This document shows positions 12,606-27,760 of a DNA stretch of 64,000 nt, in pieces. This DNA is from Filomicrobium insigne. Lineage in GTDB: Bacteria; Pseudomonadota; Alphaproteobacteria; Rhizobiales; Hyphomicrobiaceae. A model generated the notes under the pieces. It did not search any database and had not been told where the DNA came from. It saw only the letters and a list, made by a program, of their open reading frames with translations. The translations under genes and the position numbers were made by a program. The first letter of the stretch is position 1. Each line of letters starts with the position of its first letter. Location: assembly GCF_900104305.1 (NCBI RefSeq), contig NZ_FNJC01000003.1, positions 1-64,000 of the forward strand. Direction: 5' to 3'.

Positions 12606-14018
12606 ATGACAACAGAACTCAACTATCCCGACATTTCCGATTGGGATGTCGACGATGGAACGCGCCGTCAGATCGAAGGCATGATCGAAGCGGAAAAGCG
12701 GGCGCTAGAAGCGCAAAGGGCGGAACTCGAAGACTGCGAATGTAAAGAGGGGATGTTCCCAAACCCGCAGCCGACCAGACGCTCGTTTTTCCTGGCGACT
12801 GCCGCCGCGGCTGCAGCGGCCGGCACGTTGCCCCAATTGGCCCGAGCTGAAGCTCCTGCAGGCGCTATTGAGTTCCCTGTTCCCGAAGATCCCACGAAAG
12901 TGCAAGGTCGTTTGACCAACGACGACGGAGGATACGGCACTCGATCACAGTTTGAAACAGAGGCACGCTGGCGCTTTGGCACTGCGACAAAGGAATCGTC
13001 TTGGACGATGACACCGCTGGCCAGCGGCTTGGGGATTATCACCCCATCGGGTCTGCACTTTGAACGCCATCACGGCGGTATCCCGACAATCAATCCGGCT
13101 AACCACAGCCTCATTGTCCATGGCATGTGCGACAAGCCGAAAAAGTACACCATGGCGGACCTAAAGCGGTTCCCGTCGGTTTCGCGGACCATGTTCATCG
13201 AGTGCTCGGGTAACGGCCTCACCGAATTCAAGCAGCCGACGCTCAAAACCGTGCAAGGCACGCACGGCCTGACCAGTACATCTGAGTGGACCGGCGTACC
13301 TCTGTCGACAATCTTGAGTGAGGTCGGCATTAAAGATGGGGCCGCGTGGATTCTCGCGGAAGGCGCCGACGCTGCCGTCATGACGCGCAGTGTCCCAATG
13401 GACAAGGCGTGGTCTGACGCCATCATCGCATATGGGCAGAACGGTGAGGCCCTACGCCCCGAACAGGGCTATCCGCTCCGTCTTCTCCTTCCTGGTTACG
13501 AAGGCAACACACACATTAAGTGGCTCCGCCGCTTGGAAATCAGCGACAAGCCCTTCATGACACGTGAAGAAACGTCCAAGTACACGGACCTTCTCGCTGA
13601 CGGCAAAGCGCGTCAGTTTTCCATGACGATGGAAGCGAAGTCTGTAATCACGTTCCCGTCCGGCGATATGAAGCTGCCAGGACCGGGCTTCTACGAGATC
13701 ACTGGACTTGCTTGGTCGGGACGCGGCGCGATCCGCGATGTCGAGGTCACGGTGGACGGCGGCAAAACATGGAATCTGGCTTCGCTGCAAGGTCCAGTCC
13801 TGCCTATTTGCCATACGCGCTTCCGCTTCCCGTGGGTGTGGGACGGCAAGCCGGCGCTCATCGCATGCCGTTGCAGTGATGAGACGGGATACGTCCAGCC
13901 GACGATCGCCGACATCACCGCTGTGCGGGGACTGAACTCGGTCTACCACCTCAACGGCATCATGGCGTGGGCCATCGGCGCCGATGGTTCGGTAACGAAC
14001 GCGGCACATCAGGTCTGA
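12606..14018 (+). CDS. soxC: SoxC-type periplasmic sulfite dehydrogenase (molybdoprotein)
   Basis: This 470-aa protein of the sulfite oxidase family is closest to SoxC. The molybdenum-ligand cysteine is C200 (FIECSGNG), and the C-terminal Mo-co dimerisation domain is present. A twin-arginine signal is clear (TRRSFFLA, residues 57-64), but it follows an unusually long polar stretch of about 55 residues with two cysteines (DCEC). The ATG at 12606 is supported by ggaggaaat. There are no soxXYZAB genes in the window, so it probably acts on free sulfite in the periplasm instead of in a thiosulfate-oxidising complex. The next gene is its likely cytochrome partner. A SorA-type role is equally possible. 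Confidence 0.9.
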   Translation: MTTELNYPDISDWDVDDGTRRQIEGMIEAEKRALEAQRAELEDCECKEGMFPNPQPTRRSFFLATAAAAAAAGTLPQLARAEAPAGAIEFPVPEDPTKVQGRLTNDDGGYGTRSQFETEARWRFGTATKESSWTMTPLASGLGIITPSGLHFERHHGGIPTINPANHSLIVHGMCDKPKKYTMADLKRFPSVSRTMFIECSGNGLTEFKQPTLKTVQGTHGLTSTSEWTGVPLSTILSEVGIKDGAAWILAEGADAAVMTRSVPMDKAWSDAIIAYGQNGEALRPEQGYPLRLLLPGYEGNTHIKWLRRLEISDKPFMTREETSKYTDLLADGKARQFSMTMEAKSVITFPSGDMKLPGPGFYEITGLAWSGRGAIRDVEVTVDGGKTWNLASLQGPVLPICHTRFRFPWVWDGKPALIACRCSDETGYVQPTIADITAVRGLNSVYHLNGIMAWAIGADGSVTNAAHQV

Positions 14019-14091
14019 CAACTGCAAGGATTAAAGGACTGCTTTTCGTGCGGGATTTCCTGTGCGGAAAAGCGGTCAGGGAGAACTTCAT

Positions 14092-14670
14092 ATGCTGAAA
14101 AAACGCAGCACACCACAAGTCTTCTTGGCACTTCTTGCGGGCGTGTCGATCGTTGCCGTGAGTGCATTGGGGAACGACGCCAGGGCCGATGAGTTGGGCT
14201 TCGGCACGACGCCGACAAAAGAGGAAATTGCGAAGATCGATATCGACGCAATGCCGGACGGTCGCGGCTTGCCGGAGGGTTCAGGAACAGTCGCCAAAGG
14301 CAAGGAAGTCTTCGCCGAAAAGTGCGCCGCCTGCCACGGGGAAAACCTCGAGGGCATCAAGGAGGCCGGCGGCGATAAATTGATCGGCGGTCGAGGCACG
14401 CTGAATACGGCAAAACCCGTCAAGACGATCGAAAGCTACTGGCCCTATGCGTCCACGGTGTTCGACTACGTCAAGCGGGCAATGCCATTCAATGAGCCAG
14501 GGTCGCTCACGGACGAAGAGATCTACTCTGTCACCGCTTACATCCTCAACCGCGCCAACATCATAAAAGAGGATGAAGTGATGAATGCGGAGACCTTGCC
14601 CAAGGTCGAGATGCCTAATAAGGACGGCTTCATTCCAGATCCGCGTCCGGACGTGAGGCACTATCGCTAA
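14092..14670 (+). CDS. One-haem SoxD-like cytochrome c
   Basis: This 192-aa secreted cytochrome c has a signal peptide of about 32 residues, a single haem site CAACH (C78, C81, H82) and the axial methionine in RAMPF (M131). The region after it (TDEEIYSVTAYILNRA) matches the N-terminal half of SoxD. True SoxD is about twice as long and usually has two haems, so this is a shortened form. It sits 73 bases behind soxC and should take its electrons, probably to a soluble cytochrome or oxidase. The ATG at 14092 has a gggag ribosome site; the frame is open to 14062. Confidence 0.87.
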   Translation: MLKKRSTPQVFLALLAGVSIVAVSALGNDARADELGFGTTPTKEEIAKIDIDAMPDGRGLPEGSGTVAKGKEVFAEKCAACHGENLEGIKEAGGDKLIGGRGTLNTAKPVKTIESYWPYASTVFDYVKRAMPFNEPGSLTDEEIYSVTAYILNRANIIKEDEVMNAETLPKVEMPNKDGFIPDPRPDVRHYR

Positions 14671-14789: not shown

Positions 14790-17414
14790 TCACGTCTTCC
14801 CGGAAAATAAGGTTGGGCGCCGCCGCCGCGACCACATCAAGCCCGCGAACAGCGCCACGAGTAGTGGCCCGGCAGCCAGATTGAGCACCGTAATTTTCTG
14901 ACCCAACCGCTCGACGTCATCACGCATGCTTGCGCGGATGCGTCGTAGATCACGCCGGTATGGCAACAACGCCTGACTGAGTTGATTCACACGCGCGCGA
15001 ATCTCGTCAGGTAGTTGCTCGGTGCGCGAAGCACTGGCAAGTTCGAGAACTTTGCGAATATCACCTTCCACCCGCGCGATGCGCGTGATGAGCTTGCGCT
15101 CCTCTTCCTGATATCGTGCGCTGGCGTCGCGCAGCATTTCAGCGACACGTGTGAACGGCCGAGCAAGACGGCCCCGTGAGCGGATCCCGATCAGCCGAGG
15201 ATTTCCTGCTGCATGCTCGATCATGTTAAGCAGAAACGTAACGTTGTCGTTCAGAGGACGGCTCAAGTTCCGATCGCCGACAGTAACGTTTTGCAGGGCC
15301 ATTGGGTCGTATAGCCAGTCTGCATCACTAATGGCAAACACGCTTGCCGCATTGGTTTCAGCACGATGGTGCTTGGAGTCTTTGCCGTCTCCCCCAGTGG
15401 CGCCGAACGCGCTCTTGAACGGGCCACCTAGAGCCACCGCGATAACGCGTGGCTTCCCGTCGGGTTTGAACTGCGCTTCCAATCTAGCGGGATCGCCATT
15501 CTTGAAATCCTCTCTGGGCAGCGTCCCGGAATCTTCGGTCGTCGTAATTAAGGCGACGGCGTTGTCGCGGCCTGTGAGCTCGAATGAGCCGGCTTCCCCG
15601 AATAAGAGATCATTGAGGCTCGCAGTGACGGGATGAGCGGATGAAACGCGCGATCTCGGAACGCGGAGCCAGAACGGATAATTCAGTTGCTGCTGATCTT
15701 TGCCGACCACAGGCGAGGCCAGCTGAGAGTCGCCAACGATGCCCTCACCGAGAAAGCGGGCACCATACGTCAGAAGTAAATCCGAAATGTCGTTGATCAC
15801 TTCTGATGGCTGCGGGACCACTGCGGCATTCCCGCTGTTAAATCTCGCATGTGGGTCGATCATCACGATCAGCCCCTTGCCCGCCATCACATGCTGGTCG
15901 ATCTGATAGAGCAGGTCCGATTTGAGTATCGTCGCGTCCATGACGATCAACGCATCGAGATCCTCAGGAAGCGTGTCTGAGAAATGCGGGATAATCGCCA
16001 CATCATATTGGCGTTTCACGTCCTCCAGGAATGCCAGGCCCGGCCGCGGTTCGGTTGCATTGCTCGGGGTCAACGCAGGCGAGATGATGCCGATGCGTGG
16101 TGTCCTGTCGCGAGAGAGGTTGTCGATAGCCAACGCGACATCATACTCAAGAAGTTCGCTGCGCTGCTCGTCGAAATACGAGATCACGCCCTGCCGATCT
16201 CCACGGTGAAATACAGCGCCTAAAAAGAAGTTGTCGCCCGATGACATGGGCACCCTCCGCACCCCGGCCGCGAGCGCCGTTTCCTCGGCGTCGCTATCGG
16301 GACTTACGTCATGGGTTCGGATTGTAATGTGTCCGTCGGACAGGGACGCCAACTGGAACAAAATCCGTTCGACGCGATCCGCGTGGAGGCGAATGCTTGC
16401 CGGAACGCTTGCTTGCCCTTCGCTCCAATAGAAGTCGACGGCAATGCCTTCAGGCGTGTTGCGGGCTATGGCACGCGTCTCATCGTGCAACGTGAACTCG
16501 CGGGCATCCGTTAGGTCGAGAGTAGTCGGTAGGCGCAATGTTACGGCAATGACGACGGCAGCAGCCCCTGCGAGAAGTACGACAGTCGCAGTGTCACGGC
16601 CCGCCCGAACAAATTTAGCTTTTCCGGCGAGACGGCGACGAGCCATCGCTAGCGTCGTTGCCAATAACGCAAGCCCCGTTGTGAGGACGAAGTAAAGAAC
16701 GGCGGCGAGCTCTATCCGCCCGGCCGCCATACGATCCAGCCAGTGTTTCGGACTCAGGAACACTAAGAGAGCGGATAAGGGCTCAGCAAAGGTGCCACTC
16801 AGCAATCTGCCGAAAACGTCCCAACCAAAGAGGGATAGCAGTACAAGAAACCCGAGCCCAACAACATAGGCGCTGACTGGCTCTCGAACGAGAGCAGCCG
16901 CGAAGAGGGCGACCGCAAAATAGACCGCCAGAAGGCCGAGTGCCCCGAAATAGCCTGCAGCAACGACGCCCCATTCCGGATCACCGAGATAGGCGATCGT
17001 GAGGACGAATGGAAACGTGCAGAGAAGCGAGACGCACAGCACACTGAGGCCTGCTGCCCATTTGCCCACGATGATAGCCGAGCGTGCCAACGGCATGCTG
17101 AGCGTCAATTCCAGAGCGCGATCGCCCGGGTCATCGGTAAAGGCGCGCATGGCGAGCGCGGGGACGAAGACGAGCGCAACCCACGGCAAGAACGTCCATT
17201 GCAGGGCAATACTCGCAACGTCCGTTGCATAGAAGTTGGCGATCAGAAAGATACAGGCGTTGAGCGCGATTAGAAAACCGACCTGAAAGATCGCTGTCAC
17301 AGGGGCATAGATGAACTGCCGCCATTCATTGCGGTACACCGCGAAGACATCGCTGATCCAGCGTCCGGACTTCGAGGTCGGCCTGCTCTCGGAGGGTAAG
17401 CTTGCACTCGTCAT
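14790..17414 (-). CDS. GldF-GldG-type fused ABC permease/auxiliary protein
   Basis: This 874-aa protein joins two parts. Residues 1-265 form an ABC-2 type permease with about six membrane helices. Residues 300-800 form a large GldG-like domain (ABC_transp_aux, with the run GIISP and FLEDVKRQYDV typical of it), ending in a coiled-coil stretch and a last membrane helix near the C-terminus (KITVLNLAAGPLLVALFAGL). In Bacteroidetes GldF and GldG are separate; fused or adjacent forms are common in Proteobacteria with unknown cargo. The ATPase gene lies 4 bases upstream. Its location between soxC and the MSA importer may be chance. The function is unknown. Confidence 0.87.
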   Translation of the reverse strand: MTSASLPSESRPTSKSGRWISDVFAVYRNEWRQFIYAPVTAIFQVGFLIALNACIFLIANFYATDVASIALQWTFLPWVALVFVPALAMRAFTDDPGDRALELTLSMPLARSAIIVGKWAAGLSVLCVSLLCTFPFVLTIAYLGDPEWGVVAAGYFGALGLLAVYFAVALFAAALVREPVSAYVVGLGFLVLLSLFGWDVFGRLLSGTFAEPLSALLVFLSPKHWLDRMAAGRIELAAVLYFVLTTGLALLATTLAMARRRLAGKAKFVRAGRDTATVVLLAGAAAVVIAVTLRLPTTLDLTDAREFTLHDETRAIARNTPEGIAVDFYWSEGQASVPASIRLHADRVERILFQLASLSDGHITIRTHDVSPDSDAEETALAAGVRRVPMSSGDNFFLGAVFHRGDRQGVISYFDEQRSELLEYDVALAIDNLSRDRTPRIGIISPALTPSNATEPRPGLAFLEDVKRQYDVAIIPHFSDTLPEDLDALIVMDATILKSDLLYQIDQHVMAGKGLIVMIDPHARFNSGNAAVVPQPSEVINDISDLLLTYGARFLGEGIVGDSQLASPVVGKDQQQLNYPFWLRVPRSRVSSAHPVTASLNDLLFGEAGSFELTGRDNAVALITTTEDSGTLPREDFKNGDPARLEAQFKPDGKPRVIAVALGGPFKSAFGATGGDGKDSKHHRAETNAASVFAISDADWLYDPMALQNVTVGDRNLSRPLNDNVTFLLNMIEHAAGNPRLIGIRSRGRLARPFTRVAEMLRDASARYQEEERKLITRIARVEGDIRKVLELASASRTEQLPDEIRARVNQLSQALLPYRRDLRRIRASMRDDVERLGQKITVLNLAAGPLLVALFAGLMWSRRRRPTLFSGKT

Positions 17415-17418
17415 GGCA

Positions 17419-18150
17419 TCACGGCACAGCGTGCGCGGCGCCGGGTTGCGTCAGGCGTAAGAACGCGGGCGCAAGCCGGCCGGACGCATCGACCACGTCG
17501 GCTTTTCGGGTATCGGCAACGACGCGTCCCTCAGCGAGGAGGATCAAATGATCACACAACTCTTCGGCCTCTTCGAGAATATGTGTCGACATCAGGATGG
17601 TTTTACGTGAGCTGAGTTCCGCGAGCAATTTGCGCAGGTGCGTCTTCTGCAAGGGATCCAGGCCATCTGTCGGTTCATCGAGGATCAACACCGGTGGATC
17701 GTGTATGAGCGCTTGCCCCAGCCAGGCGCGTTGTCGCCATCCTTTGGAGAGCTGGCCGAGTGTCTGTCCGAGCGCGGGCCCAAGCCCGATCATATCCACG
17801 ACTCGGGAGATGGCGTCCCGACACGGCTTTCCATGAAAACCGCGAGCTTCAGCAGCGAAAATGAGAAACTCTAAGATTGTGAGGCTGGTAAATCCGTTGG
17901 CGGCTTCGGGAAGATAGCCGAGACATGCGCGTGCTTCGAGCGGATTGCGATCAATGTCATAGCCGCCAATGCTTGCGGTCCCGCGGTCGGCCGCCAAGCA
18001 TCCGGTGAGAAGTCGCATGGTGGTCGACTTACCTGCACCGTTAGGGCCCAAAAAGCCTATTACCGCTCCCGGTTCCGCGCTGAAGCTGACGTCCTTGACA
18101 ACATCATGCGCAGCGAAGCTCTTACAAAGTCCCCGGGCCTCGATCTGCAT
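17419..18150 (-). CDS. ABC transporter ATPase, partner of the GldFG-type permease
   Basis: This 243-aa ATPase has Walker A GPNGAGKST, a signature changed to LSKGW, Walker B LILDEP and the switch histidine in MSTHILEEAE. It resembles the GldA/NosF group that works with ABC-2 permeases. It is four bases upstream of the 874-aa permease on the same strand, so the pair forms an export system. The last 20 residues are divergent. Substrate unknown. Confidence 0.92.
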   Translation of the reverse strand: MQIEARGLCKSFAAHDVVKDVSFSAEPGAVIGFLGPNGAGKSTTMRLLTGCLAADRGTASIGGYDIDRNPLEARACLGYLPEAANGFTSLTILEFLIFAAEARGFHGKPCRDAISRVVDMIGLGPALGQTLGQLSKGWRQRAWLGQALIHDPPVLILDEPTDGLDPLQKTHLRKLLAELSSRKTILMSTHILEEAEELCDHLILLAEGRVVADTRKADVVDASGRLAPAFLRLTQPGAAHAVP

Positions 18151-18439: not shown

Positions 18440-19327
18440 CTAGGCATTCGGCTGTGCAGTGTAGTTCTCGGTGAAGTCCGAAGACACACCCGTCGACGAG
18501 AAGCTGCGCATCGCCTCGTCATGCAGGATGCTCATAGCCTCGCGTTTATAGTCATAAGCTTCTTGCGAGTTGAGCATCGAGTAGTGACGTGGGCGCGGCA
18601 ACCGGATGTCGATCACCTTGCGGACCTGCGCTGGCCGGTTGGACAGAATAACCAGACGGTCTGCGAGGAAGATCGCTTCATCGATTTCTGAAGTCACGAA
18701 CAAGTTCGTACGGTGGTTTTCTTCAAACAACCGCAAGAAGAATTCCTGCATCAGACCACGAGACATGGCGTCCAGACCACGGAACGGTTCGTCCATGATC
18801 AGGATGCTTGGCTTGTTGATCAGCGCGCGTGCAAGTTCTGCACGGCGTTGCATGCCGCCCGAAAGCTGAAGGGGATACTTGTGCATGAACTCATAAAGAC
18901 CAACCTTCGCCAGCAGGCGTTCGGCTTCGTCTTTAAGTTCCTTGCCCCGCATGTCTCCGCGCAGCTTGGGACCAAATACAACGTTTTCGTACGTGGTCTG
19001 CCACGGCATCAAAGCCGTTTCCTGGAAAACGACCATGCGGTCTTTGCCAGGTCCCGTTACGCGCTTGCCGTCCAGTAGAATCTCACCGCTGTCTGGCCGT
19101 TCGAAACCGGCGATGAGATTGACCAACGTGGACTTGCCGCAACCTGACGGCCCCACCACAACGGTGAGGTCGCCCGGCGTTAGCTCAAAGCTAATGTCCT
19201 CGATAACGGTCTGCTCGTCCCACTCTTCACCGTAGGACTTGGAAACGTTCCGCAACTCGACCTTGGACTTACCAATGGCATAGTCCTTGGACGCGGCGGC
19301 TGCTCCTTTGGAGTTCTCTTGTTGCAT
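18440..19327 (-). CDS. MSA importer ATPase 2 (switch histidine lost)
   Basis: This 295-aa ATPase is of the nitrate/sulfonate/taurine class. Walker A GPSGCGKST is at 59-67, the Q-loop (VVFQ) at 99-102, signature LSGGM at 155-159 and Walker B LIMDEP at 176-181. The switch region, normally THD, reads TSE (T212, S213, E214), so the catalytic histidine is gone. The second ATPase of the operon (20271-21152) has the opposite defect, which suggests the two pair up. It ends the operon msmE-permease-ATPase-permease-ATPase. MSA as substrate is inferred from the divergent monooxygenase genes. Confidence 0.9.
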   Translation of the reverse strand: MQQENSKGAAAASKDYAIGKSKVELRNVSKSYGEEWDEQTVIEDISFELTPGDLTVVVGPSGCGKSTLVNLIAGFERPDSGEILLDGKRVTGPGKDRMVVFQETALMPWQTTYENVVFGPKLRGDMRGKELKDEAERLLAKVGLYEFMHKYPLQLSGGMQRRAELARALINKPSILIMDEPFRGLDAMSRGLMQEFFLRLFEENHRTNLFVTSEIDEAIFLADRLVILSNRPAQVRKVIDIRLPRPRHYSMLNSQEAYDYKREAMSILHDEAMRSFSSTGVSSDFTENYTAQPNA

Positions 19328-19376
19328 TTTTTGCTACCTTTTCTTGAACACTCGGTCACGAATTATGGACACGAGG

Positions 19377-20243
19377 TCAGAACATCCGTTTCCAGGGCAT
19401 GAACCAGTCTCCGAGCGCACGGATCGCGGATGATGACAGGAAGCCCGCAATACCGATCGAGATCATGCCGACGACGATCTGCGTAAGCGAGCCGCCCATG
19501 TACGAGTTCCAGATGAAGAACCCGAGGCCGCCGCCACCCTGCGTACCACCGCCCGAGATCATCTCGGCCGCAAGAACGACTTCCCACGTAATACCCATGC
19601 CGACTGCAGCACCGGTGAAGATCGAAGGCAGCGTAGCGGGCAGGACGATCCGCGAGAACAGGTGCCACTGCGATGCGCCCATGGACTGCGCGGCGCGCAG
19701 GTAGCGAACATCGATAGATCTTGCGCCACCAAGCACGTTGATCACGATCGTAAAGAACGCACCAAGGAACGTAACGAATGCGATCGACATTTCGTTGGTG
19801 GGCCAGAAGATCAGAGAAGCGGGAACCCACGCCAGCGGCGGAATTGGACGAAGGATCTCAAAGGGTGGGAAGAACAAGTCGCGGAAGTACTTGTTCACGG
19901 CAAGAAGCAGGCCGAACGGAATACCGAGGGCCATAGCCACCAAGAAGCCCGACAAAACGCGCCGGAAGCTTTCATACCAGCTGTTCCAGTAACCAGCCTT
20001 CGGTAGAACCTCGAGCCAGGCAACTGCGACATCCGTTGGTGGAGGGATGAGACCGACAAAAGGAACGGTCCATGCTTCACCGAGCCATTCGTCCATCCGG
20101 GACCCAACTTCCCAGACACACAGGAACACGATGACGGCGGTGACACCGCGCCAGAAAGAAACATTTTGGATAAGTTTCTCCAGCTTCGAGCGGCGACGCG
20201 GCAATGCGTAGGCGCCTGAGCTGGATTGTGCGACATCAGTCAT
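19377..20243 (-). CDS. MSA importer permease 2
   Basis: This 288-aa inner-membrane permease of the SsuC/TauC class has about six helices and the ABC-contact loop near residues 170-200 (RAAQSMGASQWHLFSRIVLP). It is one of two different permeases in the operon, so the transmembrane channel is probably a heterodimer. The ATG at 20243 is 27 bases after the stop of the preceding ATPase gene. Substrate is assigned by context only. Confidence 0.92.
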   Translation of the reverse strand: MTDVAQSSSGAYALPRRRSKLEKLIQNVSFWRGVTAVIVFLCVWEVGSRMDEWLGEAWTVPFVGLIPPPTDVAVAWLEVLPKAGYWNSWYESFRRVLSGFLVAMALGIPFGLLLAVNKYFRDLFFPPFEILRPIPPLAWVPASLIFWPTNEMSIAFVTFLGAFFTIVINVLGGARSIDVRYLRAAQSMGASQWHLFSRIVLPATLPSIFTGAAVGMGITWEVVLAAEMISGGGTQGGGGLGFFIWNSYMGGSLTQIVVGMISIGIAGFLSSSAIRALGDWFMPWKRMF

Positions 20244-20270
20244 GACTTTGTTTCGACTCCCCGCTCTTAG

Positions 20271-21152
20271 TTACGCAAGCTCGCGTTCGCCGGCTTCGAA
20301 CGCTTTGATTGCTTCTTCGTGGACGGCTTCGTTGACTTCTTCCATGAGCACCCGGAATTGCTCGGAGGATTGCACGGCGTAGGAACGTGGCCGTGGAATG
20401 TCGACGTTAACCGTCTTCTTCAATTGGCACGGACGTGTCGTGACGATATGCACCTTGTCGCCAAGGAAAATTGCTTCTTCGAGGTCGTGGGTAATGAAGA
20501 AGATCGTCACCTTCGTGCGGTCATAGGTCTCGAGCAGTGACTCGTGCATGATAGATTTCGTCAGCGCGTCCATCGCTCGGTACGGCTCATCGAGCAGCAG
20601 AACTTTGGGATCGTTGATCAATGCGCGTACGATTTCGGCACGCCGTGCCATACCTGATGACACTTCGCCCGGATACTTGTTGCCAACGTCGCCGAGACCA
20701 GCGTCGGCAAGCATATGTCGAGCCTTTTCCATCGCGAGGGACTTGGACAGCGCGCCCTGCACGATAGGACCGTAGGCAACGTTTTCAGCCAGCGTTTTCC
20801 ATGGGAACAGAGCACCGTGCTGGAACACGACCATGCGATCTGCGCCCTGTTTGGCTTTTGGCTTGCCTGGACCGCAAAGAAGTTCGCCATCCAGACGGAT
20901 TTCACCGGAGGTAATGGAGTGGAAGCCGGCGATCGCGTTGAGTAGGGTTGTCTTCCCGCAACCAGACGGCCCGACGATCATGCAGACTTCACCGCCTGCA
21001 ATCTCCATGGAGGCATTGTCAACGGCCATCACGTTGACGCCCTCGGGATCGTAAATCTTGGTAACGTTGCGGATGCTGATAGCGCCCTTCAAAGCTTGCT
21101 CAGGCTTCTTATGCGGCGTTCCAGCTTCGGAAAATGGAGCGGACACGTTCAT
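20271..21152 (-). CDS. MSA importer ATPase 1 (degenerate signature)
   Basis: This 293-aa ATPase has Walker A GPSGCGKTT (61-69), Q-loop VVFQ, Walker B LLLDEP (185-190) and an intact switch (T221, H222, D223). The signature, normally LSGGQ, is VSSGM (164-168), with the conserved leucine and the first glycine lost. Together with the sister ATPase this gives one complete and one incomplete ATP site if they heterodimerise. The start at 21152 (MNVSAPF) is preferred over the open frame to 21224, because the longer form overlaps the upstream permease gene and begins with an Arg-Ala run. Confidence 0.9.
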   Translation of the reverse strand: MNVSAPFSEAGTPHKKPEQALKGAISIRNVTKIYDPEGVNVMAVDNASMEIAGGEVCMIVGPSGCGKTTLLNAIAGFHSITSGEIRLDGELLCGPGKPKAKQGADRMVVFQHGALFPWKTLAENVAYGPIVQGALSKSLAMEKARHMLADAGLGDVGNKYPGEVSSGMARRAEIVRALINDPKVLLLDEPYRAMDALTKSIMHESLLETYDRTKVTIFFITHDLEEAIFLGDKVHIVTTRPCQLKKTVNVDIPRPRSYAVQSSEQFRVLMEEVNEAVHEEAIKAFEAGERELA

Positions 21153-21187: not shown

Positions 21188-22075
21188 TCAGCGACCTTGA
21201 AGCGCGAGCTCGCGCACGTGCCACTGCATGAGATAGTTACCCAGGCTGCGTACCAGGATGGAGGTAAGCCAGCCGATGAGGCCTAGCGTGAGCATGCCGA
21301 TCACCATCGGAATGGTGACGCTGTTCACGTAGGAGTCGACGATGAGATAGCCGAGACCGTGATCACCGGAGACCATTTCAGCAGCAACCAGCGAGAACCA
21401 AGCCACACCGATTGAAATCTGAAGGCCCGTAAAGATGAATGGCAGAGCTCCGGGAACGACGACGTTCTTGAAGATGTCCCAGTTGCTGGAACCAAGGCAG
21501 CCGGCGGCGCGGAAATACTCTTCGTCGATCGACTCCACGCCAAGCATCGTGTTGAGCGTGGTAACGAAGAGCGAAGCCAGCGTTGCCAGGAAGATAACGG
21601 GTGCCTCAAAGCCTGGGAGCATGAGAATAGCCAATGGAACCCAAGCAAGGATAGGAATTGGCCGGAGCGTCTCAAGAATTGGGAAGATATAATCCCGGAT
21701 CTTCTTAGACCAGCCCATGAAGAGCCCCAGAGGAACACCTACGCCGGTGGCGATTGCGAAAGCGATCGCGATGCGCCGACAGCTCACATAGATGTGATTC
21801 CAGTAGGCTTCCGTGAAGATGGAAATACCCTGGAAGGGCTCGGGCGAGAACCAGTCGCGGGCGACTGCGACTGGACCGGGGATCTTATCAAAGCGGTCTA
21901 CGCGTAGTCCCTCGCACAATAACCAGTAGACGAAGATCCACAGGCCGACACCGGCGATCGTGAGGTACGGCGTCGGAGTAGAAAAAGATTTCTTCAGCCG
22001 GTAAAGAAATAGCGCGAACCCCTTGGGAGGGGCGGTGCGCCGCGTATTTTTTGATTTTGATGCTGCTTGAGCCAT
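21188..22075 (-). CDS. MSA importer permease 1
   Basis: This 295-aa permease of the SsuC/TauC class has about six helices and the ABC-contact loop (RAAGCLGSSNWDIFKNVVVP, about 180-200). The N-terminus is a 30-residue basic cytoplasmic tail. ATG at 22075 is chosen; a GTG at 22087 is possible but sits on top of the ribosome site. It is the first gene after the msmE hairpins and differs clearly from the second permease, implying a two-permease importer. Confidence 0.92.
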   Translation of the reverse strand: MAQAASKSKNTRRTAPPKGFALFLYRLKKSFSTPTPYLTIAGVGLWIFVYWLLCEGLRVDRFDKIPGPVAVARDWFSPEPFQGISIFTEAYWNHIYVSCRRIAIAFAIATGVGVPLGLFMGWSKKIRDYIFPILETLRPIPILAWVPLAILMLPGFEAPVIFLATLASLFVTTLNTMLGVESIDEEYFRAAGCLGSSNWDIFKNVVVPGALPFIFTGLQISIGVAWFSLVAAEMVSGDHGLGYLIVDSYVNSVTIPMVIGMLTLGLIGWLTSILVRSLGNYLMQWHVRELALQGR

Positions 22076-22175
22076 GGTGAAGCGCACTTTCCAGCTTTAG
22101 GACTCGCCGTTTAGGTCGAGCTTTTGGGGCGTAATGCGGCCCGGTTTCTTTCTGTGTCTTAGGGGTGGTTTGTGA

Positions 22176-22271: not shown

Positions 22272-23408
22272 TTACTGCTTGAAGTCCGACATGGGGCGCG
22301 TCTTGACCTCACCGAGAGGCGCCGACAGCCCCCGCTCTTTCATCAGTTCCTCGGCAAATTGGAACTGCATGGCGTCAGGCCGAATTTTCTCTTCGGCTGC
22401 GGGCTTTTGAGGCAGGCTGTACAGATACGCAGTCGCATCATCAAGAAGCTTTTTCACGCGATCCGTTGCAACAAAATCGAGCCGAATCTTGGTCTGACCC
22501 ACCTGGGGCTCAGCGCCGCCGTAAAGAGCAGCCCACAAAATTTTACGGTCGATTTGCTCGGTTTGCTGCTCTGCCATCTTCGAAACGGCGTCGGCATTGT
22601 TGAGGTCAGCAAGAAAGAGCTGCGCGTCAAGCTCGGCATTGAGCCAACCTTTAACGACGTCAGGGCGTTGTTGGATCAGGTCATTGAGCATGACCATGAA
22701 GCCGCCGTCGACAATGTCGAAATCTTCACCCGAAGCCACGCGGCGGGCGATACCCTTCAGCTCGATCTTGCTGGCTGTGGGTTCCCAGATGGCGGCGGCA
22801 TCAAGCTTTTTCGCTGTGAAGTTGGTGGTGATTACCTCGATGCTCTGGTTCAGGTACCGCTTTGGTTTGATGCCCGTAATGTCGAACGCGCGACGGGCAA
22901 AACGGTCGGTGCAGGCGCCGAACGGTGCGGAAATGGTTTTGCCATCCATCCACTTGACCGCATCCGTACCGGACTTGAATTCCGGGGCGTCGTTGCGGAC
23001 GAGAAAGATGTTGCACTGTTGCTTCGAGGTACCCAGCGTGGAGACGATGCGGATATCGGTGCCGCCACGGTTGGGAAGGTTGCGGAATGTGGCAGCGATC
23101 GCCGGCATATCGCCGACATACCCGATGTGCTGCTTTTCACCGGTCATCGCGTTCACGATAACCGCACCCTGCAGACCGACTTGGAAATCAGCCGTAGAGC
23201 CTTCAGGTAAGTATTTCTTCCAGAGTTCTTTGCCGTTGACGACAATACCGGACCAAGAACCCGTGTAGTACGGCTGATAGCCTACGACGAGATTAACCGG
23301 TTCTCCGGCCTTGCCAAACTGAACATCGGCGGAGCTAGGGGCCGACGCAAGCAGCATAGCTGCCGACGCGAGGGCAGCTGACGTAACGCTTTTCGCAAAC
23401 AATTTCAT
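22272..23408 (-). CDS. msmE: MSA importer periplasmic binding protein MsmE
   Basis: This 378-aa solute-binding protein resembles the SsuA/TauA/NrtA group. A signal peptide of about 28 residues ends at SSA-DVQF. ATG at 23408 follows ggagg. It opens the importer operon and is divergent from msmA, as expected of the msm transport operon in MSA-using methylotrophs. A lone CNIF and GACTD give two cysteines that could form a disulfide. The name msmE rests on context and general family match; a taurine or alkanesulfonate binding protein cannot be excluded from sequence alone. Confidence 0.85.
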   Translation of the reverse strand: MKLFAKSVTSAALASAAMLLASAPSSADVQFGKAGEPVNLVVGYQPYYTGSWSGIVVNGKELWKKYLPEGSTADFQVGLQGAVIVNAMTGEKQHIGYVGDMPAIAATFRNLPNRGGTDIRIVSTLGTSKQQCNIFLVRNDAPEFKSGTDAVKWMDGKTISAPFGACTDRFARRAFDITGIKPKRYLNQSIEVITTNFTAKKLDAAAIWEPTASKIELKGIARRVASGEDFDIVDGGFMVMLNDLIQQRPDVVKGWLNAELDAQLFLADLNNADAVSKMAEQQTEQIDRKILWAALYGGAEPQVGQTKIRLDFVATDRVKKLLDDATAYLYSLPQKPAAEEKIRPDAMQFQFAEELMKERGLSAPLGEVKTRPMSDFKQ

Positions 23409-24186
23409 TCGTTTCCTCCAGAAACATTGTGTGACAGCGCCAAAGCTTCTTTATTTTTTTATTCAACTTTTCGGATGACGGCGGTTTGCGCTTTGCCCGT
23501 CACCCAGCTTTGGGCGGTTTGTTTTTTTGCCTTTCTGTGCAGTTCTCCCTTCTATGCATCCCCGACGATGCGGTTGAGTTCAACGCGGCGGCCATCTTAT
23601 TGTTTTTAAACGATAAATACCGCCTCTATTCGGTCGTGTTTTCAGTGTCTGCACGAGTGCTTAACGACACTGAGACACTGCAAAGCAATTCCTGATCAGA
23701 ACTCGCAAAGTGAATCCCGCAACGTGGTGCAATTGCGCCGTGTAAAACCATGACCTGTAAAATTGTTCGTTTTGATCTCCTCATATCTCAAGCCTATCAA
23801 GGTTGGGCCAACATCCATATTGCCGAATATGATTAGCCTTCCGTCGCTCGCCCCTGCGGAGGCGCGAGCCCGTAGAATGAGCCCGGTTTGCGGGGCTTTG
23901 CAAACCCAAATTACCCTCGGCGAACCAGCTAATATCTGATTTGCAAGTTCGATCATGTGATAGGAACTTTTAATCCCATCGATATGGCGACTCCCACTCT
24001 TCTTTGTTATTTAAGATAGACATGAACCGGCCGTGTATCCGCCAAGTGTCTGCAGTGATTGATACTTGGAGACTGGAAAACACGGAGCGGCGGCGGAGGC
24101 GGCCGATAGTCGGCCTTCCGAAGGATTTGTCTGCGACATGCGTCCGCGCGACAGGAATTAACATCCGGACGCTTGAGGAGGAACTG
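23409..24186. promoter_or_regulatory. Divergent msmE / msmA control region
   Basis: These 778 bases are A/T-richer than the genes around them and hold no supported gene. They must carry promoters for both msm operons. Visible elements are an 11-base palindromic site gttgggccaac (23802-23812), a perfect 6-bp inverted repeat catatt-gccg-aatatg (23816-23831), and an inverted repeat of cagtgtc/gacactg near 23646-23676. The frame of msmA is open back to 24004, but the product is Arg-rich and lacks a ribosome site. Confidence 0.6.
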
Positions 24187-25458
24187 ATGCCAGCAAGGAA
24201 TCACAGTCAGTGGACCGCGGAACCACCGCTCCAACAGGGTGAGTGGGTTGATAGCCGGATCTACTCGGACCAGGAGATCTTCGAGGAAGAGAACGAAAAG
24301 CTCTTTAAGCATATTTGGGTGCCCGTTTGTCACGAGTCTGAGCTGCCAAATGCTTACGACTTCCGCACGACGAGCATCGCGCGTGAGCCGATTATTATCG
24401 TTCGTGGTGCCGACAATGAAGTTCGCGCCTTTCTGAACGTCTGTCCGCACCGTGGCATGATGATTGAGCGTCGCCCGTCAGGTAGCTTCCTCGAGGGGCA
24501 GCCGTCCGGTAACCCCAAGCGCATGACCTGCATGTTCCACGCATGGCAGTTCGACATGAAGGGCAACTGCGTATACGTCGCCCGTGAGCAGGAAGGTTAT
24601 CAGGATCGTCTTTGCAAAGAGAACGTCGGTCTCCGTCGTCTTCGTTGCGAAGTTAAGTTCGGTGGTTTTGTCTGGGTCAACCTGGATGATAGCCCAAAGG
24701 TGTCGCTCGAAGAGTGGGCTGGCCCCGCATTCGAATGCCTCCGCGAGACGCTCGATGCCGAGCCGCTCGAGGTTTTCCACTATCACAAGGCGATCGTGAA
24801 TACGAACTACAAGCTGTGGCATGACACCAACAGCGAGTTCTATCACGACTTCATGCACTACCATAACCGCGTGACCGGCTTTAACGATGCGTACTTCGCA
24901 CGCAAAAACGAAGCCTTCGATAACGGTCACGTTGTTGTTGGTACGTTCACCGTGAACTACGAGAACTACGAAGGGTTCGAAAGCCGCGCGGAACTGTCGT
25001 TCCCGCATCTGCCGCCGAACCAGTGGTACATGATCGACTTGTTCCCGGGCTTCAACTTCAACCTGCGCGGTTCTGCGCTGCGTTGTGACACTGTTACGCC
25101 CTTGGGTCCCAATCAGGTTTTGATCGAGTTCCGTGGGCTTGGCTTGAAGCGTGATACGCCGGAAGAGCGCATGACGCGTATCAACCACCACAACTCCATC
25201 TGGGGTCCGTTCGGTCGTAACCTGCACGAAGACCTTGTTGGTGTTGTTGGTCAGGGCGCTACGATGGCTCCAAAGTCTGAGCCCCGTCGCATTCTCCATG
25301 GTCGTCAGGAAAACCAGACGATCCACGACGAGAACGGCATGCGTCACTACTACGAAGAGTGGGGCCGTTGGATCAACCGTTCGCCAACGAACCCGACGCA
25401 GCCTTACACGCCGCGCGCCGGGGCTGCTGGTGACGCTGCAGTAGCAGCGGCTGAGTAA
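24187..25458 (+). CDS. msmA: Methanesulfonate monooxygenase hydroxylase, large subunit
   Basis: This 423-aa Rieske oxygenase alpha subunit is part of the enzyme that converts methanesulfonate to formaldehyde and sulfite. The Rieske ligands are C86, H88, C115 and H118: 26 residues separate the two halves, whereas ordinary Rieske oxygenases have 15-17. The x26 spacing is the known mark of MsmA. The mononuclear iron region is around E217, H220 and H224. ATG at 24187 has a perfect ribosome site (gaggag), which settles the start over the longer open frame. Codon choice (CGT, GGT, AAC) suggests high expression. Two strong hairpins follow. Confidence 0.95.
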   Translation: MPARNHSQWTAEPPLQQGEWVDSRIYSDQEIFEEENEKLFKHIWVPVCHESELPNAYDFRTTSIAREPIIIVRGADNEVRAFLNVCPHRGMMIERRPSGSFLEGQPSGNPKRMTCMFHAWQFDMKGNCVYVAREQEGYQDRLCKENVGLRRLRCEVKFGGFVWVNLDDSPKVSLEEWAGPAFECLRETLDAEPLEVFHYHKAIVNTNYKLWHDTNSEFYHDFMHYHNRVTGFNDAYFARKNEAFDNGHVVVGTFTVNYENYEGFESRAELSFPHLPPNQWYMIDLFPGFNFNLRGSALRCDTVTPLGPNQVLIEFRGLGLKRDTPEERMTRINHHNSIWGPFGRNLHEDLVGVVGQGATMAPKSEPRRILHGRQENQTIHDENGMRHYYEEWGRWINRSPTNPTQPYTPRAGAAGDAAVAAAE

Positions 25459-25461
25459 TCC

Positions 25462-25512
25462 CAGGCGGGCTTGTGCCCGCCTGCATCGGGCGGCCCGGCA
25501 TTGGGCCGCCCG
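25462..25512 (+). promoter_or_regulatory. Two strong hairpins between msmA and msmB
   Basis: Right after the msmA stop are a 9-bp stem with a 4-base loop (25462-25470 with 25475-25483) and a 10-bp stem with a 6-base loop (25487-25496 with 25503-25512). No U-run follows, so they look like mRNA-stabilising or partial-termination structures. An 11-base direct repeat (25508-25518 and 25564-25574) overlaps the second hairpin. Confidence 0.75.
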
Positions 25513-25644
25513 TATTGATCACCGCAAGCGTACTTTGAAAGATGACAGTCAGCAGAGATCTACGCCCGTATTGACGGATCTCTTCTACGCACCCGGGATA
25601 CGGGTATTGACTGTCGGCACTTTGGCTTCTTGGGAGGACCACTA

Positions 25645-26136
25645 ATGAATAAGAACGGCGCAGACGCCGCATCGAAAGTGCGCGATACGATCTATCGCGC
25701 GACTGTTGCGCTGGATGATGAGAAGTGGAACGACTGGCTCGGTCTTTGCGACGAGAGCTTTCATTATGCCATCACGGCCTTCAGCCCTGAAATCAATAAG
25801 GACATGATCTACCTGCAGGGCAGCCGGAAGGAGATGGAAACCCTCGTAAGCCATCTGCCGAAGCACAATACGGACCATTCCTGGTTGCGTCGCCACACGT
25901 CCGTCTACACCGTGGATGTCGAAGATGATAAGGCGACCGCGGTTAGCTCGTTTGTCGTCTATATGAACGTGTTGGATGGCTTCAATTCGCATATCGAGGC
26001 CGGTGAAAGCCGCCTGTTCCTGACCGGCAAGTACTACGATACGTTTAAGCTGGACAACGGTGAGGCCAAGTTTGTGAAGCGGGAAGTCAAAATCGACAAC
26101 CGCCGCCTCGATAAGGGTTCGCACTGGCCAATCTAA
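25645..26136 (+). CDS. msmB: Methanesulfonate monooxygenase hydroxylase, small subunit
   Basis: This 163-aa protein matches the ring-hydroxylating dioxygenase beta subunit fold (cystatin-like cone) that packs against the Rieske alpha subunit. Typical length for the family is 160-190. ATG at 25645 has an excellent ribosome site (gggagg). It lies 186 bases after msmA with two hairpins in between. It has no catalytic metal site, as usual for beta subunits; its role is structural. The msmABCD order is that of Methylosulfonomonas. Confidence 0.93.
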   Translation: MNKNGADAASKVRDTIYRATVALDDEKWNDWLGLCDESFHYAITAFSPEINKDMIYLQGSRKEMETLVSHLPKHNTDHSWLRRHTSVYTVDVEDDKATAVSSFVVYMNVLDGFNSHIEAGESRLFLTGKYYDTFKLDNGEAKFVKREVKIDNRRLDKGSHWPI

Positions 26137-26195
26137 GGCCGCGATCCTACGCCCTAGAGCAAAAAGCTACTATTCTGGGATGACACCGTCCGTAT

Positions 26196-26218
26196 CGGGC
26201 AGCGAACAAAGCTGCCCG
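26196..26218 (+). promoter_or_regulatory. Hairpin between msmB and msmC
   Basis: A perfect 8-bp stem (26196-26203 with 26211-26218) with a 7-base loop lies between the msmB stop and the msmC start. There is no U-run; it is the second of three inter-gene hairpin sites in this operon. Confidence 0.65.
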
Positions 26219-26249
26219 TTAGGCGCCTCGTGTCCGAAAGGGAAAACTT

Positions 26250-26627
26250 ATGAGCTGGATCAAAGTGTGTGCGGCTTCGGACGTACCAAAAAACACCTGT
26301 CACAAGGTGTGGGTTGAGGGCATCTCGGTGCTCGTCGTCAACTATGGAGAGGGGTTCCGGGTTATGCCGCCGATTTGCCCTCACATGGAAGAACCGCTGG
26401 AAGAGTCCGGTGTCGTCGCGAATTGTGTGCTTACATGCACCAAACACCTGTGGGCGTGGGACTTGCGCACGCTCGAGATGGACGGTAGCGAGACTGAGAA
26501 GCCGTTGAAGACCTATGACGTCAAGGAAGAAAACGGCGACGTCTATGCCTTCATCGAGGGTGAGATCGTCTATGAGTTCGACGACGAAGACGATATGGAC
26601 GACGACTCCTTCTTCACGAACGCCTAA
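26250..26627 (+). CDS. msmC: Methanesulfonate monooxygenase Rieske ferredoxin
   Basis: This 125-aa soluble Rieske ferredoxin passes electrons from the MsmD reductase to the MsmAB hydroxylase. Ligands are C43, H45, C63 and H66 with the ordinary spacing of 17 residues, in contrast to MsmA. The protein ends in an acidic tail (DDEDDMDDD) of about 15 residues, likely a docking surface for its basic partners. It lies 113 bases after msmB. A hairpin with a U-run follows. Confidence 0.94.
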   Translation: MSWIKVCAASDVPKNTCHKVWVEGISVLVVNYGEGFRVMPPICPHMEEPLEESGVVANCVLTCTKHLWAWDLRTLEMDGSETEKPLKTYDVKEENGDVYAFIEGEIVYEFDDEDDMDDDSFFTNA

Positions 26628-26636
26628 CGCGAACGG

Positions 26637-26679
26637 GGCTTGAGGGACAGCGCGCTGCGTGCGTGCTCAAGCCTTTTCT
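26637..26679 (+). terminator. Terminator-like hairpin between msmC and msmD
   Basis: An 8-bp stem (26637-26644 with 26666-26673) encloses an inner palindrome cagcgcgctg and is followed by ttttctt. It has all parts of an intrinsic terminator but lies inside the operon, so partial termination would lower msmD relative to msmABC. Confidence 0.65.
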
Positions 26680-26713
26680 TCCGCTTCCCACTTTTACAAG
26701 TGCTGGATGGCCA

Positions 26714-27760
26714 ATGAAAATAAAACTGGAAACAAAATCGGGCGTCTTCACCTACACAGGTGACTGCTCTGAACCCATACTTTTCTCGGGCCTGTCTGCC
26801 GGGCTCAGCCTTCCTTACGAATGTGCGACCGGCACGTGCGGAAGCTGCCGCGCTCGTGTCATGGATGGTTCGGTGGAGATGGCTTGGCCGGAAGCGCCCG
26901 GCGCTGCGAAGCTCAAGCGCGACAAGGGTGACGTCTTGATGTGCCAGGCGCGCGCCAACAGCGATTGCGTGCTGCGGGTGCCGGCGAACGTTACGCAAGC
27001 AACCGATCTGAGCGCTGCCCCTAAATGGCGTGTCGCGCGTATCGCTGCGGCCCGTCAGCTTACGGCGGATGTAATCCACTTTGACCTTACGCTTTCGAGT
27101 CCCATGACCTTCAAGGCCGGCCAGTTCGCTGTGGTCGAGACGCCAGATGTTCTCGGTGGCCGGGCGTATTCAATGGTCAATTACGTGGAAGGGACGAACG
27201 AGTTGTCGTTTGTCGTGAAGCGTAAGCCGGGCGGTGGATTCTCCGAATGGCTGTTTGCCAACGAGTTGGTGGGCAAGGAGCTCAAGATTTTTGGACCCTT
27301 AGGAGCTGCAACCTTCGGTCCGGAAGACCAGAAGGACTTCATCGGCATCGCTGGCGGGTCGGGGATCGCCGGGATTATGTCCATTCTCGAGCGGGCAACA
27401 CTAACGGAGCATTTCCGGAAGCATAAGGGATATATATTCTTCGGGGTCCGTACGCTTGCCGATGGTTTCTACGTCAAGGAGCTTGCCGATTACGTCGATA
27501 AGGCGCAAGGAGCTCTGGAAGTAACCTTGGCGCTGTCGGATGAGGCCCCCGCTTCTCCGACGCATCCTGAATTCCCGCAGGTTCGCCTGGATGGTGGATT
27601 TGTCCATGAGGCAGCGAAGCGGGCCATGGAAGGGCGTTATGGCGACAATGCAATGGGCTATGTTGCCGGACCGCCACCCATGGTTGACGGGGCACTAAGA
27701 TTATTGCTTACAGAGGCGCGGCTACCGCCGCAATCAATACGTTACGACAAGTTCGCATAG
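26714..27760 (+). CDS. msmD: Methanesulfonate monooxygenase reductase
   Basis: This 348-aa NADH-dependent reductase has three domains: a plant-type [2Fe-2S] ferredoxin (C37, C42, C45, C77), an FAD domain with RAYSMVNY (about 150-160), and an NAD domain with GIAGGSGIAG (about 215-225). It moves electrons from NADH to MsmC. ATG at 26714 is preferred over the open frame to 26663. It closes the msmABCD set. The next gene, a TauE-type exporter, starts only 51 bases later, so the operon probably continues to 29691. Confidence 0.94.
   Translation: MKIKLETKSGVFTYTGDCSEPILFSGLSAGLSLPYECATGTCGSCRARVMDGSVEMAWPEAPGAAKLKRDKGDVLMCQARANSDCVLRVPANVTQATDLSAAPKWRVARIAAARQLTADVIHFDLTLSSPMTFKAGQFAVVETPDVLGGRAYSMVNYVEGTNELSFVVKRKPGGGFSEWLFANELVGKELKIFGPLGAATFGPEDQKDFIGIAGGSGIAGIMSILERATLTEHFRKHKGYIFFGVRTLADGFYVKELADYVDKAQGALEVTLALSDEAPASPTHPEFPQVRLDGGFVHEAAKRAMEGRYGDNAMGYVAGPPPMVDGALRLLLTEARLPPQSIRYDKFA

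Follow-up and report, generated by a model that had tools for sequence, protein, structure and literature searches.

In a stretch of 64,000 nucleotides from the alphaproteobacterium Filomicrobium insigne (assembly GCF_900104305.1, contig NZ_FNJC01000003.1, positions 1 to 64,000; the whole of it is called the window here), a methanesulfonate (msm) transport locus encodes two ATP-binding cassette (ABC) ATPases with complementary defects. ATPase 1 combines a changed signature, VSSGM, in which the third-position glycine has become serine, with an intact THD switch, whereas ATPase 2 combines an intact signature, LSGGM, with the switch TSE, in which Ser213 replaces the histidine and which HMMER aligns with the THD of CmpD and NrtD. 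Both combinations, originally predicted from the letters alone, proved exact when the frames were reread. The two proteins, 41-42% identical to each other and encoded by uninterrupted minus-strand reading frames, have intact Walker A motifs (GPSGCGKT in ATPase 1 and GPSGCGKS in ATPase 2), Q-loop glutamines and Walker B motifs (VLLLDE and ILIMDE, respectively). The predicted degenerate site consists of Walker A, Q-loop, Walker B and switch of the chain that has lost the histidine, together with the signature and D-loop of the other chain, and since there is one defect per chain, in opposite chains, both fall on this one composite site. From its sequences, the msm locus thus very probably encodes a type I importer whose ATPases act only as a heterodimer, in which one site would be hydrolytic and the other would hold ATP. 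We also lean, with less confidence, towards a broader reading, i.e. that such trans-complementary degeneracy is recurrent in importers of the NitT/TauT type, with at least three origins of paired burning and ATP-holding sites, the Walker B glutamate kept, perhaps one ATP spent per anion, and five genes in the msm case.

The two defects had been expected to travel together always, and in the msm clade they do. All 23 distinct readable pairs, including that of the window, have [VIL]SSG[ML] and THD in one chain and LSGGM and T[STA][ED] in the other, i.e. one composite site is complete and the other is changed in both halves, which is what characterizes a degenerate-site transporter. All 14 aligned rows of ATPase 1 relatives share SSGM and the switch histidine, and signatures ending in SSGL occur in five further loci (L120-L124); all 15 aligned rows of ATPase 2 relatives share LSGGM, with S, T or A and never histidine at the switch. 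This holds over rows whose identity to the window proteins falls to 52% (ATPase 1) and 51% (ATPase 2). A 24th pair (L114, 5439-7531) agrees: its ATPase 1 lies in two frames, owing either to a frameshift or to a sequencing error, and one piece carries ISSGM and the other THD. The idea that the pattern is an oddity of one genome was rejected on the strength of these 23 pairs. Relatives of ATPase 2 came from 397 genomes of the order, 11 of which, including that of the window, matched at E 1e-72, and from the best 80 of 490 loci in genome contigs, most of which were other ATPases. A 14-row profile of ATPase 1 matched 39 of 398 genomes of the phylum at 1e-72, three of which (own included) stood apart above 480 bits, and at 1e-92 it matched three of 385 genomes of the class (again with the own genome) and five of 299 genomes of a further family. 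Among 964 plasmid records there was no close relative of ATPase 1, all matches being below 60% identity and the best rows at about 44%. Some importers of the clade may serve other substrates, because the stretches of L109, L115, L116 and L117 examined contain no match to msmA.

The motif pattern goes beyond chance, because none of 117 unpaired ATPases lacks a signature glycine and only one, L020, lacks the switch histidine; the other 116 are intact at both signature glycines and at the histidine. L020 (a ‘sig+H-’ row) is in fact the ATPase 2 of the L114 locus, the partner of which was not counted as it lies in two frames. Pairs with a single defect, which would have spoken against the original prediction, are absent from 57 distinct pairs of any kind, as are pairs with both defects in one chain; 55 of the 57 are asymmetric and comprise 23 msm, 21 nitrate-type and 11 clostridial pairs. 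‘Unpaired’ means here that the stretch examined contains no further domain of the kind on that strand within 1300 bases, and the unpaired set includes next-best profile matches in Proteobacteria, clostridial next-best matches, NrtD-like single genes and others, with at least one row (L006, LSGGQ) being a more distant ATPase. Excluded before counting were loci shorter than 3000 bases, frames below 150 residues, domains whose signature or switch column was not aligned or whose score was below 300 (below 360 if unpaired), systems with identical signature-flanking cores (e.g. the duplicates L026/L108, L027/L110 and L028/L111), truncated copies of pairs already included and unpaired matches identical to a pair member. 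An earlier version of the filter had reduced 193 systems to 170 and then to 167, i.e. 51 complementary pairs and 116 unpaired ATPases, with L020 and L156 as the odd rows; the lower final threshold paired L156. Among the unpaired relatives, 16 within L032-L049, mostly labelled Deltaproteobacteria, have the unusual switch THQ, in which the histidine is kept.

The same arrangement occurs outside the msm clade. In 21 nitrate-type NrtC/NrtD pairs, fused or adjacent, the fused ATPases have LSGGM and TND in domain 1 and [ML]SNGM and THD in domain 2, and the unfused verrucomicrobial pairs have TN[DS] in one chain and LS[QM]GM in the other; the switch asparagine is found in 21 of 21 pairs, with the signature replacement varying between N, Q and M. 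A single open frame encodes both ATPase domains in 15 of the 21, which makes the asymmetric pair covalent there. One of the 21 belongs to the genome of the window itself: a fused two-domain NrtCD-type ATPase (L119:5429-7360, contig C10) with LSGGM/TND and MSNGM/THD, adjoined by an ABC permease gene. The same Filomicrobium insigne genome thus holds a second asymmetric importer. Close relatives of the nitrate-type transporter ATPase also occur on plasmids, in 33 records. Of the five annotated records examined, four show nirB downstream and one shows it upstream on the opposite strand; a sixth record is unannotated. The same asymmetry is predicted for this transporter. In a clostridial importer with adjacent ATPases, one chain has LSGGM and TNN and the other LS[VT]S and THN, in 11 of 11 loci (L056, L057, L058, L067, L081, L085, L095, L098, L173, L174 and L175). 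Two permease genes are present in both clostridial loci examined (L067 and L174); an NMT1-type binding protein was seen in L174, and transketolase-like genes near both.

In all three lineages, the histidine is kept in the chain with the broken signature and lost in the chain with the good one. Thus, the asymmetry attributed to a sulfonate importer is there, but it is not particular to sulfonate importers, as 21 nitrate-type pairs are asymmetric with two canonical, and clostridial pairs are asymmetric throughout. A pattern special to methanesulfonate was rejected on the same grounds and on the msmA-free stretches of the msm clade. Pairs were also read by eye from coordinates: among the matches listed for 120 proteobacterial genomes there were at least 10, and those 10 were all trans-complementary; a verrucomicrobial sample of 87 genomes gave seven, five of them trans-complementary and two canonical; and the coordinate lists of an actinobacterial sample of 90 genomes (49 with a match) gave no pair.

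Head-to-tail pairing of the chains implies that other deviations, too, should gather on the degenerate site. With the defining columns left out and a residue taken as rare if found in at most 3% of 116 single ATPases, 11 columns deviated at the degenerate site only and one at the complete site only (sign test, p 0.006), and three rarity cut-offs gave 10 versus 0, 11 versus 1 and 11 versus 1, in counts that include related sequences and some columns that neighbour defining ones and may not be independent. In the nitrate-type pairs, 72 of 441 cells are rare at the degenerate site and 0 of 433 at the complete one. A changed Walker B glutamate, common but not required in degenerate-site transporters, is not among these deviations: the DE of Walker B is present in all 110 chains of the 55 asymmetric pairs, and Walker A GK (108 of 108) and the Q-loop glutamine (109 of 109) are kept wherever the column is aligned.

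Defects that occur only in paired ATPases and in opposite chains, within a conserved gene order of binding protein, permease 1, ATPase 1, permease 2 and ATPase 2, support the heterodimer reading, and co-encoding in this order in 22 of 24 distinct loci (window counted), together with the near-absence of defects from unpaired ATPases, is what one looks for in an obligate heterodimer. The two departures from the order are L114, where no binding protein was found and ATPase 1 is split, and L025, where the contig starts within ATPase 1. From this pattern we infer assembly of the two chains, retention of ATP at one site and hydrolysis at the other. The importer would have five parts, i.e. MsmE, the two permeases and the two ATPases. 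The complete site, formed by the Walker motifs and switch histidine of ATPase 1 and the LSGGM of ATPase 2, would hydrolyse ATP. The degenerate site, formed by the Walker motifs and TSE of ATPase 2 and the VSSGM of ATPase 1, keeps the ATP-binding residues and would most likely hold ATP as a structural clamp, with little or no hydrolysis, such that this ATP would hold the dimer while the complete site hydrolyses. With one hydrolysing site, one hydrolysis would drive each import cycle.

It is very unlikely that each ATPase instead pairs with itself, in two separate importers or as alternative homodimers, with the motif changes as tolerated variants that create no asymmetry. In its favour, relatives in the family with one ATPase presumably use homodimers, and Walker A, Walker B and the Q-loop glutamine are kept in both chains wherever aligned; yet a homodimer of either chain would carry two impaired sites. 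The covalent nitrate-type pairs, the gathering of other deviations on one composite site, the single binding protein, the conserved five-gene order and the 116 of 117 unpaired ATPases without either change also speak against this reading. Less improbable, though still unlikely, is a heterodimer whose degenerate site goes on hydrolysing usefully with serine, threonine or asparagine for histidine and serine for glycine, so that the asymmetry would be kinetic rather than on/off—a reading that partly overlaps with the one preferred here. Retention of both Walker B acids in all asymmetric pairs would fit it, as exporter degenerate sites commonly change the glutamate according to the accessible passages of PMC7756269; against it stand the switch histidine, which the same passages describe as important for hydrolysis, and the joint change of two separate elements of one site in three lineages.

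The asymmetry apparently arose separately in the msm, nitrate-type and clostridial lineages, as judged from a tree of 105 ATPase domains calculated with the signature and switch columns omitted. This tree requires three changes for the signature and three for the switch histidine. The msm ATPases 1 and 2 form sister clades (support 99 each; joint Shimodaira–Hasegawa-like approximate likelihood-ratio test 99), as expected of one duplication; the nitrate-type chains stand among canonical NrtC/NrtD relatives with branch support 99; and the clostridial chains stand, on weaker forks, among canonical singles, many of them from Firmicutes. Forcing all signature-broken chains into one clade cost 98.3 log units (p of the approximately unbiased test, p-AU, 0.002), and forcing all chains without the histidine into one clade cost 72.7 (p-AU 0.028); a single origin of all asymmetric chains was rejected by both constrained trees. 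The most likely route would be that, after duplication, one half of one composite site was damaged first and further damage was then tolerated only in that same site, so that the second defect would fall in the other chain.

Neutral drift after duplication without any functional gain is compatible with the mode of working proposed above, and we regard it as a real, though not the likelier, possibility. Purifying selection acting on a single surviving good site would leave just this trans placement, and the replacement residues vary at some positions, i.e. S, T or A in the msm ATPase 2 switch and N, Q or M in the nitrate-type signature. Other degenerate residues, however, are fixed beside varying neighbours: signature position 3 is serine in 23 of 23 msm pairs, and asparagine occupies the switch in every nitrate-type (21) and every clostridial (11) pair. 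At the sequence level, this fixed asparagine and the msm serine suggest a maintained state rather than free decay, with fixation being compatible with selection but no proof of it.

Several observations weigh against the proposed heterodimer with one hydrolytic site. Deviations also occur at the complete site, in 46 of 474 cells in msm pairs (86 of 483 at the degenerate site) and in 17 of 231 cells in clostridial ones (76 of 231). The tree was built by a quick method and has several long branches, L200 being the longest, as well as many weak forks; the nitrate-type chains without the histidine group with a support of only 27, and a p-AU of 0.028 is modest. The pairs were found mostly through similarity to known ones, such that one-sided pairs may exist elsewhere, and kinship within lineages means that 23, 21 and 11 are not independent trials: the independent cases number three, not 55. 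Furthermore, L195 and L196, two paired NrtCD-type systems from the verrucomicrobial sample, have canonical motifs in each chain, and the aligned NrtD, CmpD and CmpC chains are canonical too. Pairing thus permits asymmetry without forcing it, and asymmetry is not seen without pairing among the ATPases collected.

In the cyanobacterial nitrate and bicarbonate importers NrtBCD and CmpBCD there is one kind of permease, whereas the msm locus has two. These importers are the closest solved structures (PDB 8w9m, 8wm7, 9u9z and 9ua1) and have two different ATPases, as does msm, but their aligned NrtD, CmpD and CmpC chains have both signature glycines and THD, unlike the msm ATPases. TauB and SsuB of the taurine and aliphatic sulfonate importers belong to the same ATPase branch, to judge from NCBIfam matches under cut-off, but there a single ATPase presumably forms a homodimer. 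TM287/288, TAP, ABCC proteins and CFTR combine one complete with one degenerate composite site, as predicted for the msm pair. They are exporters or, in one case, a channel, and their ATPases are fused to membrane domains; site 1 of CFTR resembles msm in having a third-position signature change and a serine at the switch, and the degenerate site of TM287/288 has a changed Walker B glutamate. The likeness to TM287/288 and ABCC proteins in the original prediction holds for the asymmetry but not for the broken site itself, which here keeps the Walker A lysine, the Q-loop glutamine and the Walker B acids wherever aligned.

In the accessible passages of PMC7756269, a signature change in one exporter domain goes with changes in the other, and the altered Walker B glutamate of degenerate sites extends to ABCC proteins, in contrast to msm, where it is kept. 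The degenerate-site passages seen of PMC7756565 likewise concern exporters. Among importers, the fused ATPases RbsA and NupO have one degenerate ATPase site according to the part of PMC11466899 at hand, but these are type II importers in which the second Walker A lacks its lysine, whereas msm is type I with both Walker A motifs intact. Titles and abstract openings of the papers listed did not describe degenerate sites for nitrate, sulfonate or taurine importers, an absence that is no proof, as subscription papers were mostly outside this scope. In these partial sources, exporters dominate the discussion of degenerate ATP sites, and type I importers with the same asymmetry would extend it. The cost to such importers may then be one ATP per anion and not two, and the ATP need per import cycle and the role of the second site would become directly testable.

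The methanesulfonate importer is probably a five-gene machine. The published four-gene version omits ATPase 2, which belongs to the conserved set of five genes, and the methanesulfonate importer of methylotrophs would gain a second ATPase. In the accessible part of PMC4433239, a fragment of Filomicrobium strain Y has the layout of the window, with four genes named msmEFGH and ATPase 2 listed outside them as ‘nitrate/sulfonate/bicarbonate ABC transporter ATPase’; the four transport genes are also named in the parts seen of PMC4424283 and PMC5068391. Apart from MsmF, whose chosen start makes a difference of 12 bases, the transporter genes (four of five) are as long as in that fragment, and MsmE agrees in both length and place. 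With TauB/NrtCD-type ATPases, TauC/NtrB-type permeases and an SsuA-type binding protein in one operon (table 1), the locus has the components of a NitT/TauT type I importer, an assignment at family level only, as the NCBIfam matches of all five proteins lie under the curated cut-offs. At this level both ATPases are placed near TauB, NrtCD and SaoA; by sequence, their nearest PDB chains are CmpD and NrtD, and by fold a single-chain AlphaFold2 model of ATPase 2 (mean predicted local distance difference test score 83.5) comes nearest to NrtD/CmpD, with 8w9m_D (NrtD) first.

Table 1. Transporter genes and ATPase motifs of the msm locus (positions in the window).
Feature	Positions	Strand	Basis or state
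MsmE, periplasmic substrate-binding protein (SsuA/TauA type)	22272..23408	-	open reading frame (ORF); NCBIfam SsuA_fam 2.2e-20, under curated cut-off
Permease 1 (MsmF)	21188..22087	-	ORF; NCBIfam SaoP, ntrB and TauC permease models, all under cut-off
ATPase 1 (MsmG)	20271..21152	-	ORF, ATG at 21152; TauB/NrtCD-type, under cut-off
ATPase 1 signature VSSGM (third position Gly to Ser)	20649..20663	-	broken
ATPase 1 switch THD	20484..20492	-	intact His
Permease 2 (MsmH)	19377..20243	-	ORF; NCBIfam ntrB 9.3e-40, under cut-off
ATPase 2	18440..19327	-	ORF; left outside msmEFGH in published naming
ATPase 2 signature LSGGM	18851..18865	-	intact
ATPase 2 switch TSE (His replaced by Ser213)	18686..18694	-	His lost

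Subunits of a Rieske-type monooxygenase are encoded at 24004-27760, on the strand opposite to the transporter genes. Directly after ATPase 2 lies a GldA-like ABC-2 ATPase with the signature LSKGW (17419-18150), accompanied by a partner gene of 874 residues (region 14790-18150), and an ABC ATPase of this GldA-like kind follows ATPase 2 in several other msm loci, e.g. L105, L106, L107, L108, L111 and L125. Further along, at 12606-14670, two genes correspond in position to the sulfite dehydrogenase gene (SoxC) and the cytochrome c gene (SoxD) in the accessible description of the published Filomicrobium fragment.

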